From Nitrosopumilus sp. K4 (GTDB lineage Archaea; Thermoproteota; Nitrososphaeria; Nitrososphaerales; Nitrosopumilaceae), in the NCBI RefSeq assembly GCF_018128925.1, contig NZ_CP067007.1, forward strand, positions 310,001-374,000: 64,000 bases of DNA, written 5' to 3'. How positions within the stretch are numbered: position 1 is the first letter of the stretch; every line of letters starts with the position of its first letter. The position numbers and the translations under genes are program-made. Positions 5,618-54,377 of this stretch are shown here, piece by piece. The notes under the pieces are model-generated. The model was not told the origin of the DNA. It searched no databases and saw only the letters and a list, made by a program, of their open reading frames with translations.

Positions 5618-6436
5618 TTGAAAAGGATAGGATTGTTAGGGTGTGGTGCTATAGGGACTCAAATAGCTCTTGCCATTGATACTGGAGAAATTCCTGCAAC
5701 TCTGACCCATGTATATGATGATTCCAAAGATGCGTCTTCTACGCTCGTTGAAAAGTTGAAAAATAAACCAGTTATAGTTGAAAATTCCCATCTGCTTTCT
5801 TCAAATCCTGTTGATATTGTTGTTGAAGCTGCATCGCAAAATGCTGTTAAAGATGCTGGACTCAGCATATTGCAAAATAAAAAAGACTTGATGATTATGA
5901 GTGTAGGTGCATTACTTGATGAATCTGTATATGATATTTTATCCGACGCGTGCAAAGATTTCAAAAAAACAATTTATCTTCCCTCTGGTGCAATCGCAGG
6001 ATTAGATGGAATCAAATCAATTAAAAAAGAATTAGAATCGTTATCCATTACTACTACAAAACATCCACGTTCTCTTAAGGGTGCAAAGTTTTTTGAAACT
6101 TCGTCTATTGATCTTGATTCTCTCAACTCTAAGACAACAATTTTTCAAGGAACTGCCAAAGAAGCCGTATCTTTGTTTCCTGCAAACATCAATGTGGCTG
6201 CATTACTTTCTTTGTGTGGGATAGGAAGTGAAAAAACAATGGTAAACATTGTTGCTGATCCAGACACTAACAAAAATACCCATCATATAGAAGCATGTGG
6301 AACCTTTGGAAAGATGACCTTTACCATAGAAAATTTTCCGGATCCTGCTAATCCTAAAACTAGCCGACTTGCAATACTTTCTGCCATTGAAACATTGAGA
6401 AAATACTGCTCAGATGAAATTCAAATTGGCACGTAA
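5618..6436 (+). CDS. nadX: L-aspartate dehydrogenase (NAD biosynthesis)
   Basis: 272 residues from a TTG start. The N-terminal Rossmann motif GLLGCGAIG is at residues 5-13. The C-terminal block contains the NadX signature ADPDTNKNTHHIEACGTFG followed by NPKTSRLA. The enzyme oxidises L-aspartate to iminoaspartate, the substrate of quinolinate synthase, replacing L-aspartate oxidase in many archaea. It lies 93 bp upstream of nadA on the same strand, and nadC follows further along, so the de novo pathway is grouped here. Confidence 0.9.
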   Translation: MKRIGLLGCGAIGTQIALAIDTGEIPATLTHVYDDSKDASSTLVEKLKNKPVIVENSHLLSSNPVDIVVEAASQNAVKDAGLSILQNKKDLMIMSVGALLDESVYDILSDACKDFKKTIYLPSGAIAGLDGIKSIKKELESLSITTTKHPRSLKGAKFFETSSIDLDSLNSKTTIFQGTAKEAVSLFPANINVAALLSLCGIGSEKTMVNIVADPDTNKNTHHIEACGTFGKMTFTIENFPDPANPKTSRLAILSAIETLRKYCSDEIQIGT

Positions 6437-48882: not shown

Positions 48883-51798
48883 CTATTTCTTTTTGCCATT
48901 TCCTTTATCTGGGGTATCGCCGCCACCCTGACCTGGGGTATCGCCGCCACCCTGACCTGGGGTATCGCCGCCACCCTGACCTGGGGTATCGCCGCCACCC
49001 TGACCTGGGGTATCGCCGCCACCCTGACCTGGTTGTCCATCAGTACATCTTTGATGGGATGGATGCTCATCACAGAAACTCTGAAGTCTGTTGTTTATCT
49101 TAGCTGCAGCAGCCTCTCTGGCTTCCTGTGCTTTTTGGCGTGCATCTAGCTGTTTTTCTAGACTCTTAAGATATCCTGGGTTGACTGTTCTATCATAATC
49201 TGAGTTAACAGGATCATCTTCCCAATCATCATCATAATTGAAATCTATGCTTTCAAAAATTGCTGCAAGTCCTGGTGGGATTTTTCCTAATCCTACTCCC
49301 TGACCATTTTCAAATGCTTCTTCTGAAGGATTTTCTCCTGCAGCTCCAAATCCTGGAATCTCACTTGGTCCTCCACCATTGTTTACTGCTTCAGTATATC
49401 CAAATAACTCTGCAAGTCCTGGTGGGATTTTTCCTAATCCTACTCCCTGACCATTTTCAAATGCTTCTTCTGAAGGATTTTCTCCTGCAGCTCCAAATCC
49501 TGGAATCTCACTTGGTCCTCCACCATTACCACTGTTTCCTGGTGTCTCGTCACCTTGACCTGGTGGTGCATTACCACTGTTTCCTGGTGTCTCGTCACCT
49601 TGACCTGGTGGTGCATTACCACTGTTTCCTGGTGTCTCGTCACCTTGACCTGGTGGTGCATTACCACTGTTTCCTCTTGATTCTCTAATCTCTTTTGCAT
49701 ATTCACTATTGCCTTTGGTAATCTCTAATGCTGCATCCGTATCACCACTTTCTAGAACTTCTAATGCATTTTGTAATTCTCTGATTGCTTTTTGAGTTAA
49801 TCCTAGATTTTCTCTATTTTCTAACATTTGATTAATTTCAGCAATTGTGTTTTCAATGAATTCTTCTTCTTGTGGATTATCCTCGGAAATTTGTTCTTGC
49901 ATTTGCTGAATAAGTTCATCTTTAATTTGTTCAGCTGCTGCTAATTGATTTTTAGCATTTGGAATGTCACCTGCAGCCAATAATGCTTTTGCTTGATTAA
50001 CTGAATTTTGATATGGTGTAAAATCTAAATTAACATTGTTAGATGATGCCAAATTCTGAAGGTTTTCAACATCAAAATCACTTTCCACTATTTCATTTTG
50101 AATGTTAAAAATATCCTGAGCCAATAATTGCTTCATTATTCCTGGCGGAATTGACCCTACTCCTAGACCCTGTCCCTGGATATTCTCATTGTCTGCTGTA
50201 CTGTCAACTGCAGCCCCAAAACCTGGTGGCAGTTGGTCTAACACTAATTGTTCTGAATCTCCACCTGCTGTTTCTGTTGCATCCTCAAACAATGCCATTG
50301 CAACTAGTGCTGATTCTTCTGCTCCATCAACATCTCCTGAATTTAGAGCATCTATTGCCTTTTGATATTCTAATTCTGCCATTTCAAGCAACGTAGATGC
50401 TGTTGATGAGGAGTCGTCTCCTACTGCTTCATTTGCACTTTCTTGTGCCATATCTAGAATTGCTTGGATTGGATGGAGTTCCTCTGGATCTTCAGATGGT
50501 GCCTCTTGAGCAAAAGCTGAATTTACACTAATAATTAAAACCGTAAGGACAATGAGGCCGAAAAGGCTGTATTTCAATGCTGTATTTATGGTATATTTCG
50601 ATATAATTGACTGGTTCGAATGAGGCCTTATTGAGGTTCGAATGGACTGAACCTTGTAAATTATTGCCGCAGGAATGAAAATATACATTCCAATATTCAT
50701 CATAATTGCTACAACACCGTATCCAATCATATCTTGTTCAGAGTTAATCTCTACATGGTCTAGTATTGATAGTGAGAAAAGCATTGGTGTGATTGAAATT
50801 CTTACTGTCTCTTTGAAAATCGGATTTTGGCGCTCAAAATCTGCAATTATGGGTGAGAACGAATAGTAAATCTGGTTAAAACCGCTCATAAATGATGTGC
50901 CTGATTCTGTTGAAAGCACGGTACTGTCTCTTAACTCCCGTAATTGCTGGACTTGTGGCGCCATTTCAGTGCCAAATGTGGCTGTGGCAATAAGACACCC
51001 TCCACCTTCTGGTGTCTTTTCTGGGATTTTATTGAATATTTTGATTGTTCCTTTCTCATGAGGATCAATTCTTATCCATGAATGGGTAGAATTTTGAAAG
51101 AATTTTTGAAAATCTACTTTTTCCTCATTTAATGAAGCGTCTTGGATATCTAAGAACAGTGATGTTGGGATTATTCCTAGAATTACAGCCTTGTCTTTGA
51201 TATTGAATCTGATTTCGTTGCTATCTGCAGAAAGTTCCTCTATTTTTGCACCTGTGATAAACTCAATTAGGTATTCAGCATCGTTTTGTGATATTGAGAA
51301 TTCCTGGGATGTTACCTGCCTAATTGAATAACTGAGCACAATCTCGCCTGGAGGCAAAACAAATTCTCTCTCATTTACCTCCATTGGTATTGTATTGAGA
51401 GAAACAAGTTTTGAGAGTGGTGGTAATATGACCTTTGATTGCTCATCGCTATGATAATTTATCTTGAAAATACCTGATTTGTATGAAATGATATTTGCAT
51501 TATAGGTTAAATCCACTTTTGTCGCGCCTAATGATGCTATATTTAGCATGTCTTTGTCTTGAGTAGTTACAAGTAGTATGTTGTCTTCATCTAAAGCCAA
51601 TATGCCTGAAATCTGGTCAGAAATTAGATTTACATCCACTGATGATACAAATGGTTCTGGAAATAGCGTGTGTGCTACCTTTGCTTTTGCATCAGATGTA
51701 ACTGTGATTATGATGCCTTCTTGTTCTGGGATTTGAGCAATTGCAGAAATAGGGATTAATGTAACTGACAGTATGAGAAAGACCCATTTTGTTTTCAT
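48883..51798 (-). CDS. Giant repeat-rich CFI-box surface protein with internal second signal-like segment
   Basis: 971 residues. Residues 1-21 are a signal peptide, and about 22-260 a beta-rich domain. GGGCLIATATFGTEMAPQVQ (265-284) starts the archaeal CFI-box region, which ends in a membrane helix near 358-382. Then SLFGLIVLTVLIISVNSAFA-QE (411-432) looks like a second cleavable signal. It leads into helical, acidic modules and three repeat blocks: a GFGAA...GQGxGxGxIPPG unit (three copies), GNSGNAPPGQGDETP (x3) and PGQGGGDT (x5). It is possibly a fusion of two secreted proteins. It is second in the operon after 51808-52494. Confidence 0.75.
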   Translation of the reverse strand: MKTKWVFLILSVTLIPISAIAQIPEQEGIIITVTSDAKAKVAHTLFPEPFVSSVDVNLISDQISGILALDEDNILLVTTQDKDMLNIASLGATKVDLTYNANIISYKSGIFKINYHSDEQSKVILPPLSKLVSLNTIPMEVNEREFVLPPGEIVLSYSIRQVTSQEFSISQNDAEYLIEFITGAKIEELSADSNEIRFNIKDKAVILGIIPTSLFLDIQDASLNEEKVDFQKFFQNSTHSWIRIDPHEKGTIKIFNKIPEKTPEGGGCLIATATFGTEMAPQVQQLRELRDSTVLSTESGTSFMSGFNQIYYSFSPIIADFERQNPIFKETVRISITPMLFSLSILDHVEINSEQDMIGYGVVAIMMNIGMYIFIPAAIIYKVQSIRTSIRPHSNQSIISKYTINTALKYSLFGLIVLTVLIISVNSAFAQEAPSEDPEELHPIQAILDMAQESANEAVGDDSSSTASTLLEMAELEYQKAIDALNSGDVDGAEESALVAMALFEDATETAGGDSEQLVLDQLPPGFGAAVDSTADNENIQGQGLGVGSIPPGIMKQLLAQDIFNIQNEIVESDFDVENLQNLASSNNVNLDFTPYQNSVNQAKALLAAGDIPNAKNQLAAAEQIKDELIQQMQEQISEDNPQEEEFIENTIAEINQMLENRENLGLTQKAIRELQNALEVLESGDTDAALEITKGNSEYAKEIRESRGNSGNAPPGQGDETPGNSGNAPPGQGDETPGNSGNAPPGQGDETPGNSGNGGGPSEIPGFGAAGENPSEEAFENGQGVGLGKIPPGLAELFGYTEAVNNGGGPSEIPGFGAAGENPSEEAFENGQGVGLGKIPPGLAAIFESIDFNYDDDWEDDPVNSDYDRTVNPGYLKSLEKQLDARQKAQEAREAAAAKINNRLQSFCDEHPSHQRCTDGQPGQGGGDTPGQGGGDTPGQGGGDTPGQGGGDTPGQGGGDTPDKGNGKKK
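48913..49032 (+). repeat. 24-bp tandem repeat (5 units)
   Basis: Five units of GGTATCGCCGCCACC plus TGACCTGG, in frame inside the giant gene and encoding PGQGGGDT. The GC content is much higher than its surroundings, so it is prone to copy-number change. Confidence 0.9.
49265..49527 (+). repeat. 116-bp identical duplication (period 147 bp)
   Basis: 49265-49380 and 49412-49527 are identical. They encode the GGGPSEIPGFGAAGENPSEE-type unit with KIPPGL. A diverged third copy is at protein residues 526-551. The identity suggests a recent duplication. Confidence 0.9.
49525..49675 (+). repeat. 45-bp tandem repeat (3.4 units)
   Basis: Three exact units (49525, 49570, 49615) and a partial one encode GNSGNAPPGQGDETP in the giant gene. 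Confidence 0.9.
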
Positions 51799-51807
51799 GA
51801 TTTATGA

Positions 51808-52494
51808 CTATCTTTGAATTTTTGGACCGCCTTTCCCGCTAATGTCGACCCATTGCCCATCTTCATATCTTTGAAGCGTATTTGTCATTGAATTGTATTG
51901 CAAATCTCCCTCATTTGGTTCGATATCTGGTTTTTCAAACACTATTTCTTCATTTAGATTTTTTCCAAACCTGTCTAATGAAAGGGTAAATGATTGACAG
52001 AAAAATTTTGTAACTTCTCTAATCTCTATGTTATCTTTTCCTTCAATAAATTGAATTTTGCCCAGAGAATCCACCGCATGAACAAAATATTCGCCTAAAC
52101 TACACTTGTCATATTCTAATGTCTCAATTAATTTGCCATTTCCTGAATAGATGTCAATTGATATGTTGATTTGCTCTTTTTTTAATGGATTTTTATCATC
52201 TAGTGAATCTTTGATAAACTGGTAGAACTCCTTTTTGTCTAGACTGGGTACTGATTCTAAGAGAAAATTTCCCTCGCCTGATACAAATCCTATTCTTGAG
52301 AATGAATCGTAGGTTCGAATCTCATATTCGCCCTCTCTTTGCGTATGGACAATTATGGAATTGGCTGCATTGTCAGGGTCAAGTGTGATTCCTCCGTGTG
52401 CCTGTAGCATATCTGGATTGATTATCGAAATTCCTGAAAATAATGCTAAACTGGTAGTAACTATGGTTAATGTAAGTAAAACCCATGTTTTCAT
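51808..52494 (-). CDS. Secreted protein, first gene of the repeat-protein operon
   Basis: About 228 residues from the ATG at 52494. An upstream ORF extension to 52593 runs through the promoter and is rejected. The signal peptide is WVLLTLTIVTTSLALFSGIS. The body has beta-type segments (GGITLDPDNAANSIIVHTQRE) and ends RYEDGQWVDISGKGGP, a motif often seen in extracellular coat proteins. A TATA-like CTTTATAAGG lies about 25 nt before the ATG, so the mRNA is probably leaderless. It precedes the 971-residue gene by 9 nt. Confidence 0.7.
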   Translation of the reverse strand: MKTWVLLTLTIVTTSLALFSGISIINPDMLQAHGGITLDPDNAANSIIVHTQREGEYEIRTYDSFSRIGFVSGEGNFLLESVPSLDKKEFYQFIKDSLDDKNPLKKEQINISIDIYSGNGKLIETLEYDKCSLGEYFVHAVDSLGKIQFIEGKDNIEIREVTKFFCQSFTLSLDRFGKNLNEEIVFEKPDIEPNEGDLQYNSMTNTLQRYEDGQWVDISGKGGPKIQR

Positions 52495-52518: not shown

Positions 52519-52526
52519 CTTATAAA
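52519..52526 (-). promoter_or_regulatory. TATA box of the secreted-protein operon
   Basis: TTTATAAG on the minus strand, about 26 nt upstream of the ATG at 52494, gives a leaderless transcript. The 23-bp palindrome lies about 40 bp further upstream. Confidence 0.6.
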
Positions 52527-52563
52527 GACTCAGAATTATTTTTTCATTCAGACACAAATGGGG

Positions 52564-52586
52564 GTAGTTCGATTCAATCGAACTAC
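52564..52586. promoter_or_regulatory. Perfect 23-bp palindrome, candidate TrmB operator
   Basis: GTAGTTCGATT-C-AATCGAACTAC: 11-bp arms around one base. It lies between the divergent promoters of the secreted-protein operon and of the TrmB-like regulator, upstream of both TATA boxes. The perfect dyad symmetry and position suit a dimeric regulator; binding is not shown. Confidence 0.6.
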
Positions 52587-52599
52587 TTTCCATTCAGGC

Positions 52600-52646
52600 T
52601 CGAAATCCTTGGTTATATTGAAAGTTACCTAACTATCCTATAGAAA
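52600..52646 (+). promoter_or_regulatory. Promoter P1 of the TrmB-like gene
   Basis: TCGAAAT, then TTGGTTATATTG (TATA) about 35 nt before the ATG, then ACCTAAC. Nearly the same sequence occurs before the mini-ORF at 53861 (P2). Confidence 0.6.
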
Positions 52647-53492
52647 ATGAATACAACACAAGAACTTACCCTGTTTGACAATGAATCTGAAGTTGAATTG
52701 TTCAAACATAAGATTACTCTGGAGAAAATAAAAAATGAATTAATCAATTTTGGCTTGACCTCAAACCAAAGTAAGGTGTTTATCTATCTTGGAAAGTACG
52801 GATCGAAGACGGCCTCAGAGATAGCAAAAGCACTCCAATTGCCACGAACTGAGACATATCATCTGGTAAACTCACTCCAAAACATGGGTCTTGTGACTGC
52901 AGAACTGTCACATCCTACAAAATACACTTCGTTGGAGATGAAAAAGGCAATTGCGACACTCGTAAAACAAGAACAGCAAAGAATTGAATATCTTGCTGGC
53001 AAAGAAGAGTCTTTATCTCAAATGTGGAATGAACTACCATTCTTTGTAGTTGAGACTGATGAGTCAAAATCTGAAAAAATGCAGTTATTGCATGGATTGG
53101 CAGCCATCACAAACAAAATCAAAGAGATGGTAGGATCCAGTACTGAAAACATCCGGGTATTTGGAAGCATGGCAGATGTGTTGCGTCTGTATCATTCAGA
53201 TGTCTTTGATTGGATTGATAATGCTCCAACTGAACTAAAAATGGTCATTTCTCCAATGACAAAAAAGCCTGAATTTGTTTCTGACCTGGATCAGGACAAG
53301 ATTCGTTCATTGGTATCTGGTTCGGACAAAAAGTGCTTTGTAATTAATGATTCAAAAGAGATACTCATCTTTATGAGAAATGCAAACCATCCAACAAGAC
53401 AGACCTTCGCATGGTGGTCTGACTCTGAAACCCTAGTCGAAATGATGAGTATGTTATTTGACTTGTCTTGGGAAAAAGGAGAGATGGTATAG
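52647..53492 (+). CDS. TrmB-like transcriptional regulator
   Basis: 281 residues. The helix-turn-helix (FGLTSNQSKVFIYLGKYGSK, then TASEIAKALQLPRTETYHLV) and the following wing (VTAELSHPTKYTSLEMKKAI) match archaeal TrmB/sugar-specific regulators. A coiled linker and an effector or oligomerisation domain follow (GSSTENIRVFGSMADVLRLY). No sugar-binding residues can be claimed. It is divergent from the secreted-protein operon and directly upstream of mini-ORFs at 53494 and 53657. It is likely the regulator of both sides. Confidence 0.85.
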   Translation: MNTTQELTLFDNESEVELFKHKITLEKIKNELINFGLTSNQSKVFIYLGKYGSKTASEIAKALQLPRTETYHLVNSLQNMGLVTAELSHPTKYTSLEMKKAIATLVKQEQQRIEYLAGKEESLSQMWNELPFFVVETDESKSEKMQLLHGLAAITNKIKEMVGSSTENIRVFGSMADVLRLYHSDVFDWIDNAPTELKMVISPMTKKPEFVSDLDQDKIRSLVSGSDKKCFVINDSKEILIFMRNANHPTRQTFAWWSDSETLVEMMSMLFDLSWEKGEMV

Positions 53493-53493
53493 T

Positions 53494-53664
53494 ATGAGCG
53501 TTATGGCAATACAGGCATTGCATAATGAAGTGGGACAAATTGCAAGACATTCGATTCATGAGGGTCGTGATCACCTAGATAACTTGGAGATTGAGCATTT
53601 GATAAAGATGACCGATGATGTCGTAATGAAGATCAAAAAACAATTGGGTGGTTACTGTGACTAA
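53494..53664 (+). CDS. Mini protein 1 of the TrmB locus (56 residues)
   Basis: The ATG at 53494 is 1 nt after the regulator stop. The C-terminal half, EIEHLIKMTDDVVMKIKKQ, shares its motif with the mini-ORFs at 53657 and 53861, and the protein ends GGYCD. It is predicted as an amphipathic helix. Tight spacing implies co-transcription and coupling with the regulator. Unknown function. Confidence 0.6.
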   Translation: MSVMAIQALHNEVGQIARHSIHEGRDHLDNLEIEHLIKMTDDVVMKIKKQLGGYCD

Positions 53665-53743
53665 GTCAGAACTTGATAATCTTCTTCAGATGACTGATGC
53701 AGTATTTGCAAAAATTAAACAATCTGCAAGTGAAAACTTCTAA
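53657..53743 (+). CDS. Mini protein 2 of the TrmB locus (28 residues)
   Basis: A GTG start overlaps the previous stop by 8 nt; a GTG at 53648 would add three residues. SELDNLLQMTDAVFAKIKQS repeats the motif of mini protein 1. It is very short, so support comes mainly from the shared motif. Confidence 0.45.
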   Translation: MTKSELDNLLQMTDAVFAKIKQSASENF

Positions 53744-53811
53744 ACCTTATATTCTCTGATTTTTCTTTTGATTTTTCATTTTATGTGATTCGAACCAATT
53801 CTTACACATAT

Positions 53812-53860
53812 TCGAAATACTTGGTTATATTGCAAGTAACCTAACAGATACTGTAGAAAG
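53812..53860 (+). promoter_or_regulatory. Promoter P2, near-copy of P1
   Basis: TTCGAAATACTTGGTTATAT followed by TGCAAGTAACCTAAC is almost identical to P1 (52600-52646), with the ATG at the same distance within 2 nt. A further TTCGAA lies 23 bp upstream, at 53790. A common regulator is likely. Confidence 0.6.
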
Positions 53861-53995
53861 ATGGGCATGGAAAACCAAACAACACATGAAATAATGACAA
53901 ATGAAGTTTTTGATCTCGAACTGTCAAATCTATTGCAAATAACAGATAATGTATTGATGAAAATCAAGGGTAGTGTTAGAGGGGGATGCTCTTGA
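53861..53995 (+). CDS. Mini protein 3 of the TrmB locus (44 residues)
   Basis: Read from the ATG at 53861; the ATG at 53867 is an alternative. The end ELSNLLQITDNVLMKIKGS is the third copy of the shared motif, and it closes RGGCS with a Cys near the tip as in mini protein 1. It is driven by P2. Unknown function. Confidence 0.6.
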   Translation: MGMENQTTHEIMTNEVFDLELSNLLQITDNVLMKIKGSVRGGCS

Positions 53996-54138
53996 AAACC
54001 TGTTTGGTCTGTGTAAAACCATTTGTGGTAGGTAAAAAAGACTGTTGCTCTGAGATTTGTTATTTTACTCACCTGCAACGCAAATTAGATCTTGCTTTTG
54101 CAAGAGATGACAGTCATACACGTGTGCTTACTACTTAG
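53986..54138 (+). CDS. Mini Cys-rich protein of the TrmB locus (50 residues)
   Basis: The ATG at 53986 overlaps mini protein 3 by 10 nt. CLVCVKPFVVGKKDCCSEIC gives a C-x2-C...CC-x3-C array fit for a metal site, followed by a basic His-containing tail (YFTHLQRKLDL). Coupled translation with mini protein 3 is likely. Unknown function. Confidence 0.5.
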   Translation: MLLKTCLVCVKPFVVGKKDCCSEICYFTHLQRKLDLAFARDDSHTRVLTT

Positions 54139-54161: not shown

Positions 54162-54377
54162 TTATGATTTTGACAAAATTTCAAAAATTTTGTTTTTTTC
54201 ATACTTGTATTTATCGTGATTTCTGAGATATTCTTTGATGGCAACAGATACTGATTCTGTGTCTAATGACTCTCTGTTTTTCAGAATTGCCTTGAGCAAA
54301 TTTTCCTTTGATGATTCAAATTCAAACTTTGCCTGATTTAGATCCACGTAACTTTTTCTTTTTTTAGATTTTAACAA
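54162..54377 (-). CDS. Small charged helical protein
   Basis: 71 residues, Lys/Glu rich and helical (DLNQAKFEFESSKENLLKAI, AIKEYLRNHDKYKYEKNKIF). Family not recognised. It is convergent to the TrmB-locus mini-ORFs. Confidence 0.55.
   Translation of the reverse strand: MLKSKKRKSYVDLNQAKFEFESSKENLLKAILKNRESLDTESVSVAIKEYLRNHDKYKYEKNKIFEILSKS

Follow-up and report, generated by a model that had tools for sequence, protein, structure and literature searches.

Very short proteins of Methanosarcina mazei, such as sP26, are proposed to work through contact with a larger partner molecule; their sequences and their targets, which are metabolic enzymes and transporters, are unrelated to those described here. 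The closest working analogue of the locus that we analysed is the Bat-Brz-Brb system of the Halobacterium salinarum bop regulon, in which the helix-turn-helix (HTH) activator Bat is tuned by a small zinc-finger protein, Brz, and a co-transcribed small basic protein, Brb (PMC2253796, PMC3184054). Homologues of Bat are also accompanied by small zinc proteins (PMC2253796, PMC3184054), and Brz-type proteins are defined by a CPxCG-like pattern with a second Cys/His pair 7–40 residues away (PMC2253796). The locus lies in a window of 64,000 nucleotides (bases 310001–374000 of a 1.65 Mb Nitrosopumilaceae genome assembled as one contig) and shares with Bat-Brz-Brb an HTH regulator and very small, apparently co-transcribed proteins, one of them of probable zinc-finger type, beside a membrane-protein gene that may be under its control. 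In contrast to Bat, the regulator is TrmBL2-like; the mini-proteins are helical, slightly acidic and of a different family from the basic Brb, a separation made by charge; and several paralogous helices are found per locus. Because the helical family matched nothing known in the searches made, the zinc-type protein (ORF4) has no CPxCG and the longest mini-protein (ORF1) is not basic, the module is not a member of Bat-Brz-Brb. The mini-proteins probably act as helper proteins for the TrmB-like regulator; the fuller proposal, that together with ORF4 they form an accessory module working on it as Brz and Brb do on Bat, has in our judgement about an even chance of being correct. Ammonia-oxidising archaea are abundant and biogeochemically central, and their transcription control is little known. 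The locus combines a regulator, its promoter, a candidate operator, partner mini-proteins and a candidate target surface operon in one defined module, which is conserved in Nitrosopumilus and relatives; Nitrosopumilus salaria BD31 and Nitrosarchaeum sp. BD3 are among the genomes that have it. It opens the question of dedicated micro-protein partners of archaeal regulators to direct testing.

The regulator gene (52647–53492, forward strand) encodes 281 residues, with a winged HTH at residues 34–97 that matches the TrmB DNA-binding domain PF01978 (E = 1e-14; 54.5 bits against a cutoff of 25.6). A profile of the protein aligned with the TrmBL2 structure 5bpd (residues 34–279 against 13–262, E = 1e-7), so that it shares both the winged HTH and the full-length TrmBL2-like body with the TrmBL2/TrmB family; it differs from TrmBL2 in an extra N-terminal extension of about 22 residues. 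As a further difference from the family at large, the match to PF11495, the effector-binding domain with the sugar-binding residues, fell below the cutoff (13.7 bits against 22.2, profile positions 50–135 of 233), and members of the TrmBL2 type are likewise without this domain (PMC4158304). TrmBL2 equivalog status was rejected, at 30 bits against an NCBIfam cutoff of 530. Orthologues that are 70–78% identical occur in Nitrosopumilus and Nitrosarchaeum.

Three small ORFs follow on the forward strand, with the positions and lengths reported in an initial annotation made by a model from the sequence: ORF1 (53494–53664, 56 residues), ORF2 (53657–53743, 28 residues, GTG start) and ORF3 (53861–53995, 44 residues). 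That annotation had described the first two as tightly coupled to the regulator, and indeed ORF1, which has a GGAG site ahead of it, begins 1 nt after the TrmB stop and shares its last 8 nt with ORF2. ORF3 lies 117 nt beyond ORF2, and its stop is overlapped by the Cys-rich ORF4 (53992–54138, forward strand), which had been overlooked; a mechanical call places the ORF4 start at an ATG at 53986, but the TTG at 53992 is likelier by alignment with relatives. The reading frames are coupled, with ATGA-type overlaps among the cassette genes. The unit is wider than the three ORFs, taking in two divergent genes (48883–52494) and a convergent ORF of 71 residues (54162–54377, reverse strand) that has a 51% identical homologue in the same place in Nitrosopumilus genome G124 and others at seven further loci of relatives. 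Both divergent genes are on the reverse strand. The first encodes an exported protein of about 228 residues (51808–52494; the mechanical ORF reaches 52593) and the second a 971-residue surface-type CFI-box-CTERM protein (48883–51798; NCBIfam NF041770, E = 2e-19), with 49% and 46% identity, respectively, to their counterparts in a syntenic Nitrosopumilus block. The 971-residue protein carries the C-terminal repeat blocks GNAPPGQGDETPGNS and GQGGGDTP and is conserved along with the TrmB operon.

The motif that the initial annotation saw in all three ORFs was recovered by a profile built from other genomes only. Searched against the 936 ORFs of 20 residues or more in the window, this profile placed exactly ORF1 (E = 2.3e-24), ORF3 (5.4e-7) and ORF2 (1.1e-6) at the top, whereas the fourth-ranked window ORF had E = 1.1 and none of 8,890 shuffled ORFs did better than E = 0.37; all window members were left out of it, its seeds having been chosen with an earlier profile that contained them. 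Taken singly, the E-values of forms of 28–34 residues are modest, and they are strengthened by position, promoter and frame conservation. The exact DNA pattern of the motif had no match in its own genome because the codons differ, and ORF3 proved too short and divergent a query for a single-sequence search, which found almost no matches in 61 genomes, so that a profile was needed. With the profile, matches at E ≤ 1e-3 were found in 46 of 250 Nitrosopumilaceae genomes, many of them as tight clusters of four to five copies, which establishes the conservation of the motif in related genomes, many of which are draft metagenome-assembled genomes. A class-wide draw of 400 genomes also gave 46 with a match at this threshold, all Nitrosopumilaceae, a count that includes one weak and probably false match within a long frame (in G019). 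Short forms of 30–34 residues follow the long form at four loci of relatives, and ORF3 is the counterpart of the Nitrosopumilus p2a genes by promoter and position. The family has no significant match in Pfam, NCBIfam or the PDB, and the literature searched held no earlier account of small proteins linked to TrmB in Nitrosopumilus. All three ORFs are short and coding, carry the amphipathic helix ExxxLLxMTxxVxxKIK and are under purifying selection. The suggestion of a new family of short paralogues thus holds: the three ORFs are real members of a previously unnamed short helical protein family, confined to Nitrosopumilaceae and without an entry in the family databases searched.

Selection was assessed from codon substitutions. 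The orthologue groups had pN/pS of 0.22–0.51 in frame against 0.76–2.1 in shifted frames; the ORF1 group stood at 0.27 and trmB, in the same analysis, at 0.10. The closest pair of genomes (G034 and G080), for which numbers are small, gave 0.30 for the long form and an undefined value for the short form. AlphaFold2 (26 sequences, monomer) predicts ORF1 to be a hairpin of two helices (residues 2–22 and 30–50) with a turn around GRDHLDN, at a mean pLDDT of 90; of these two helices, ORF2 and ORF3 have just the second, the motif helix. The short-form helix is amphipathic, marginally so in ORF3 (a fraction of 0.058 of shuffles reach its value), and the additional N-terminal helix of ORF1 is conserved. 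ORF1 is net acidic, with D+E exceeding K+R. A fold search with the hairpin gave chance-level matches only, the best being a CsoR protein at E = 1.5. The predicted common element of the family is an amphipathic helix of about 20 residues, in a hairpin version in ORF1 and single-helix versions in ORF2 and ORF3. The Cys-containing tails pointed out earlier (GGYCD and GGCS) are present but not conserved in relatives, and the predicted fold is an amphipathic helical hairpin of cytosolic type; neither the suggested signal peptides nor secreted effectors are supported.

These data also bear on whether the ORFs act as proteins at all. They might serve as leader or coupling peptides, or be copies of the trmB 5′ end in decay: promoter and leader are duplicated, trmB of G034 is a remnant of 34 codons, and some relatives carry broken mini-protein copies with internal stops. 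We regard this as very improbable, given that every orthologue group is under purifying selection in its frame, that the fold is predicted with high confidence and that conservation extends across genera. An RNA element was likewise rejected, with no Rfam match and no excess folding (z = 0.85).

The statement that the regulator's promoter is copied before ORF3 proved correct. The core promoter that serves TrmB-ORF1-ORF2 (52600–52633, forward strand) consists of a BRE/TATA box, TCGAAATCCTTGGTTATATTG, and downstream sequence, and it is identical at 31 of 34 bases to a second copy ahead of ORF3-ORF4 (53812–53845, forward strand). Nowhere else in the 1.65 Mb genome does this pattern occur, even when three mismatches are allowed. 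The element stands ahead of both transcription units in the window genome and in six others (G124, G127, G129, G174, G176 and G198), where it was likewise found exactly twice, at places preceding the ‘a’ forms described below (p1a and p2a); G152 has one promoter copy and one such transcription unit. The divergent genes for the exported and CFI-box proteins have their own TATA box (52520–52527, reverse strand; conserved TTTATAAG in relatives). Between it and the TrmB promoter lies a near-perfect palindrome, GTAGTTCGATTCAATCGAACTAC (52564–52586), with zero expected by chance, where relatives carry the conserved GGTTCGnnnnGTTCGAACC. This candidate operator is a conserved site upstream of both TATA boxes, and a half-operator, TTCGAACC (53789–53796, forward strand), which matches the conserved operator half of relatives, lies upstream of ORF3. 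The site is of TTCGAA type, unlike the TACTN3AGTA or TATCACN5GTGATA operators of the TrmBL2/TrmB family. The promoter/operator element was not found in six genomes that all have TrmB and mini-proteins, and the operator logic is therefore not universal.

TrmB-family members that bind upstream of the BRE/TATA are activators (PMC4158304). We propose that TrmB may bind the palindrome, which separates its own operon from that of the divergent secreted proteins and lies upstream of the TATA box of each, and that it may also bind the operator copy before ORF3; with both sites occupied, regulator, mini-proteins and surface-protein operon would respond as one. The helices, made at the same time, would assemble with each other and with TrmB, the small zinc partners or both, and would then tune the action of TrmB at these promoters, much like Brz and Brb acting on Bat in Halobacterium. 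Coding capacity, family membership, gene coupling, the shared promoter, synteny and operator conservation are observed, whereas the helical fold is predicted; we infer binding of TrmB to this operator, binding of the mini-proteins to TrmB or among themselves, and the direction in which control runs.

Comparison with relatives shows that the cassette in the window is a shortened one. In its full Nitrosopumilus order, the first unit runs from the promoter through an ‘a’ form of 44 residues, a ‘b’ form of 33–34 residues, TrmB and the long form to a small Cys/His protein, Zn1 (CxDRH...WxVCxxC), and the second from its promoter through an ‘a’ form of 45 residues and a ‘b’ form of 34 residues to Zn2 (CxxC...CSxxC...SHT), followed by a convergent gene of about 62 residues. 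In the window, the corresponding units are promoter-TrmB-ORF1-ORF2 and promoter-ORF3-ORF4, ORF4 being a Zn2, followed by the convergent gene. The first 15 nt of the window trmB are identical to the leader DNA of an ‘a’ form at locus L071, which suggests that the first ‘a’/‘b’ pair was deleted from the window cassette by recombination between leaders.

The leaders raise the possibility that the mini-proteins antagonize TrmB, as the initial annotation had also considered: single-helix ‘a’ forms, ORF3 among them, would copy the TrmB N-terminal leader and act as decoys that sequester a partner or disrupt TrmB oligomers. The ‘a’-form leader resembles the N-terminal extension of TrmB (MNTTQKTVMFDSSSE and MNTTQELTLFDNESE), and in 7 of 11 ‘a’ forms no more than 3 of 300 shuffled sequences matched as well; the same promoter would make feedback possible. 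However, the leader is weakly constrained (pN/pS of 0.7–0.8 against 0.36–0.38 for the helix), the identity of 15 nt between the window trmB and the L071 leader is what a recent duplication or recombination event would leave, the likeness of ORF3's own leader is not significant (52 of 300 shuffles), and the long forms have no leader. Mini-proteins also persist where TrmB is missing from the locus (L073, L094 and L240) and where a close TrmB is missing from the genome (24 of the 46 family-bearing genomes), which argues against a pure TrmB antagonist. We consider this explanation unlikely.

The window and Nitrosopumilus G124 share the order pyrophosphatase, secreted protein of 164 residues, proteins of 205 and 378 residues, CFI-box protein, exported protein, cassette and ileS, and the matching ORF order and flanks therefore identify an old syntenic locus. 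The mini-protein family and a close TrmB were not detected in the congeners G001, G003 and G004, and the sampled relatives G034 and G017 have a reduced version or none at the syntenic place. Horizontal transfer, considered because of the absence from congeners, was ruled out by the whole-block synteny with G124, and repeated loss fits the patchy distribution better. This distribution, together with small coupled genes and an autoregulated promoter pattern, could also recall a toxin-antitoxin-like or phage-related addiction module. Such a module has only a slim chance of being the answer: no toxin or antitoxin domain was found, all partners are alike helices, no instance was found in viral contigs with TrmB as bait, and the chromosomal location is fixed and syntenic in two genera. 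A defence or phage link was rejected, the mini-proteins having no Pfam or PADLOC match and only weak, isolated PHROG matches. At L073, an internal in-frame deletion cuts trmB to 34 codons (6207–6311) and leaves the coupled mini-protein ORFs intact, and G080 (L074) has an intact trmB at the place of this remnant.

Across genomes, TrmB and the mini-proteins are associated asymmetrically. Close TrmB places (E ≤ 1e-150) number 28; compared by hand, not by script, 17 of them adjoin a mini-protein gene, one weakly (L106), and three further places are cut by contig ends. A family member occurs in 22 of the 23 genomes with a close TrmB (Fisher p = 8e-18, uncorrected for phylogeny), but 24 of the 46 family-bearing genomes have no close TrmB. 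TrmB has been lost and the mini-protein kept at L073, L094 and L240; the genomes of L073 and L240 have another TrmB copy elsewhere, and that of L094 has no close TrmB. A strict TrmB partnership is therefore not required, and the asymmetry is in keeping with a dependence of TrmB on the mini-proteins, not of the mini-proteins on TrmB.

ORF4 and its relatives bring in the zinc proteins. ORF4 is 44–48% identical to Zn2 of four cassettes of relatives, with invariant CxxC...CSxxC and HT (genome search E = 5e-24), and the ORF4/Zn2 orthologue group (g11) has pN/pS of 0.22. From their Cys/His patterns, both ORF4 and Zn1 may be expected to bind zinc. The Cys pairs of ORF4 are CLVC and CSEIC, neither CPxC nor CxxCG, which places it outside the Brz-type definition; the G034 homologue has CMHCG. 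In size and paired Cys motifs, ORF4 and Zn1 recall the haloarchaeal one-domain zinc-finger micro-proteins, such as HVO_0758, but they share no sequence family match with them, ORF4 lacks CPxCG, and the cassette adds helical mini-proteins. At least 34 of 44 Zn1 places (E ≤ 1e-14) lie within about 300 bp of a mini-protein gene, by hand comparison. Loci of a second class encode a fusion of Zn1 with a motif-type helix, for which the predicted structure is a small beta ribbon followed by a C-terminal helix (pLDDT 81).

These neighbourhoods are compatible with a function of the mini-proteins around the small zinc proteins, in a small helical/zinc complex that acts on another target, with TrmB controlling only their expression. 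We hold this to be possible but doubtful. It would account for family members in seven second-class and four third-class loci that have no TrmB, for the loci at which TrmB was lost and the mini-protein kept, and for Zn1 as the most consistent neighbour, even fused to the motif helix. On the other hand, genomes with a close TrmB nearly always have a mini-protein, the window genome has no Zn1, and the neighbours of unlinked Zn1 copies are other HTH regulators, a further pointer to transcription. Inspection of eight seemingly unlinked Zn1 copies showed that one (L240) has a mini-protein after all and that five come directly after small winged-HTH regulator genes, by HTH calls that are near or just below the Pfam cutoffs. 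Extending the helper reading beyond the window, we suggest only tentatively that in ammonia-oxidising archaea interchangeable micro-proteins (single helices, hairpins and zinc ribbons) assemble variably on winged-helix regulators such as TrmB; if so, they would provide combinatorial control of cell-surface operons.

The pairing of an HTH gene with a small zinc-protein gene is recurrent in Nitrosopumilus. At five loci (L241, L242, L244, L246 and L247), a CxDRH Zn1 gene lies directly downstream of a winged-HTH gene of about 116–121 residues, outside the TrmB cassette. Second-class loci of Nitrosopumilus (L084, 5809–6272; L092, 5851–6317) lie between DUF6659-type and YHS-type genes and have a long mini-protein in ATGA overlap with a Zn1 protein that bears a further C-terminal motif helix. 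Beside the mini-protein locus of Nitrosarchaeum (L082, 5328–5558; L077, 6788–7138), duplicated segments around VERMLEDQRNIVDLDLSIKKLKFQRK occur in small ORFs next to bio genes.
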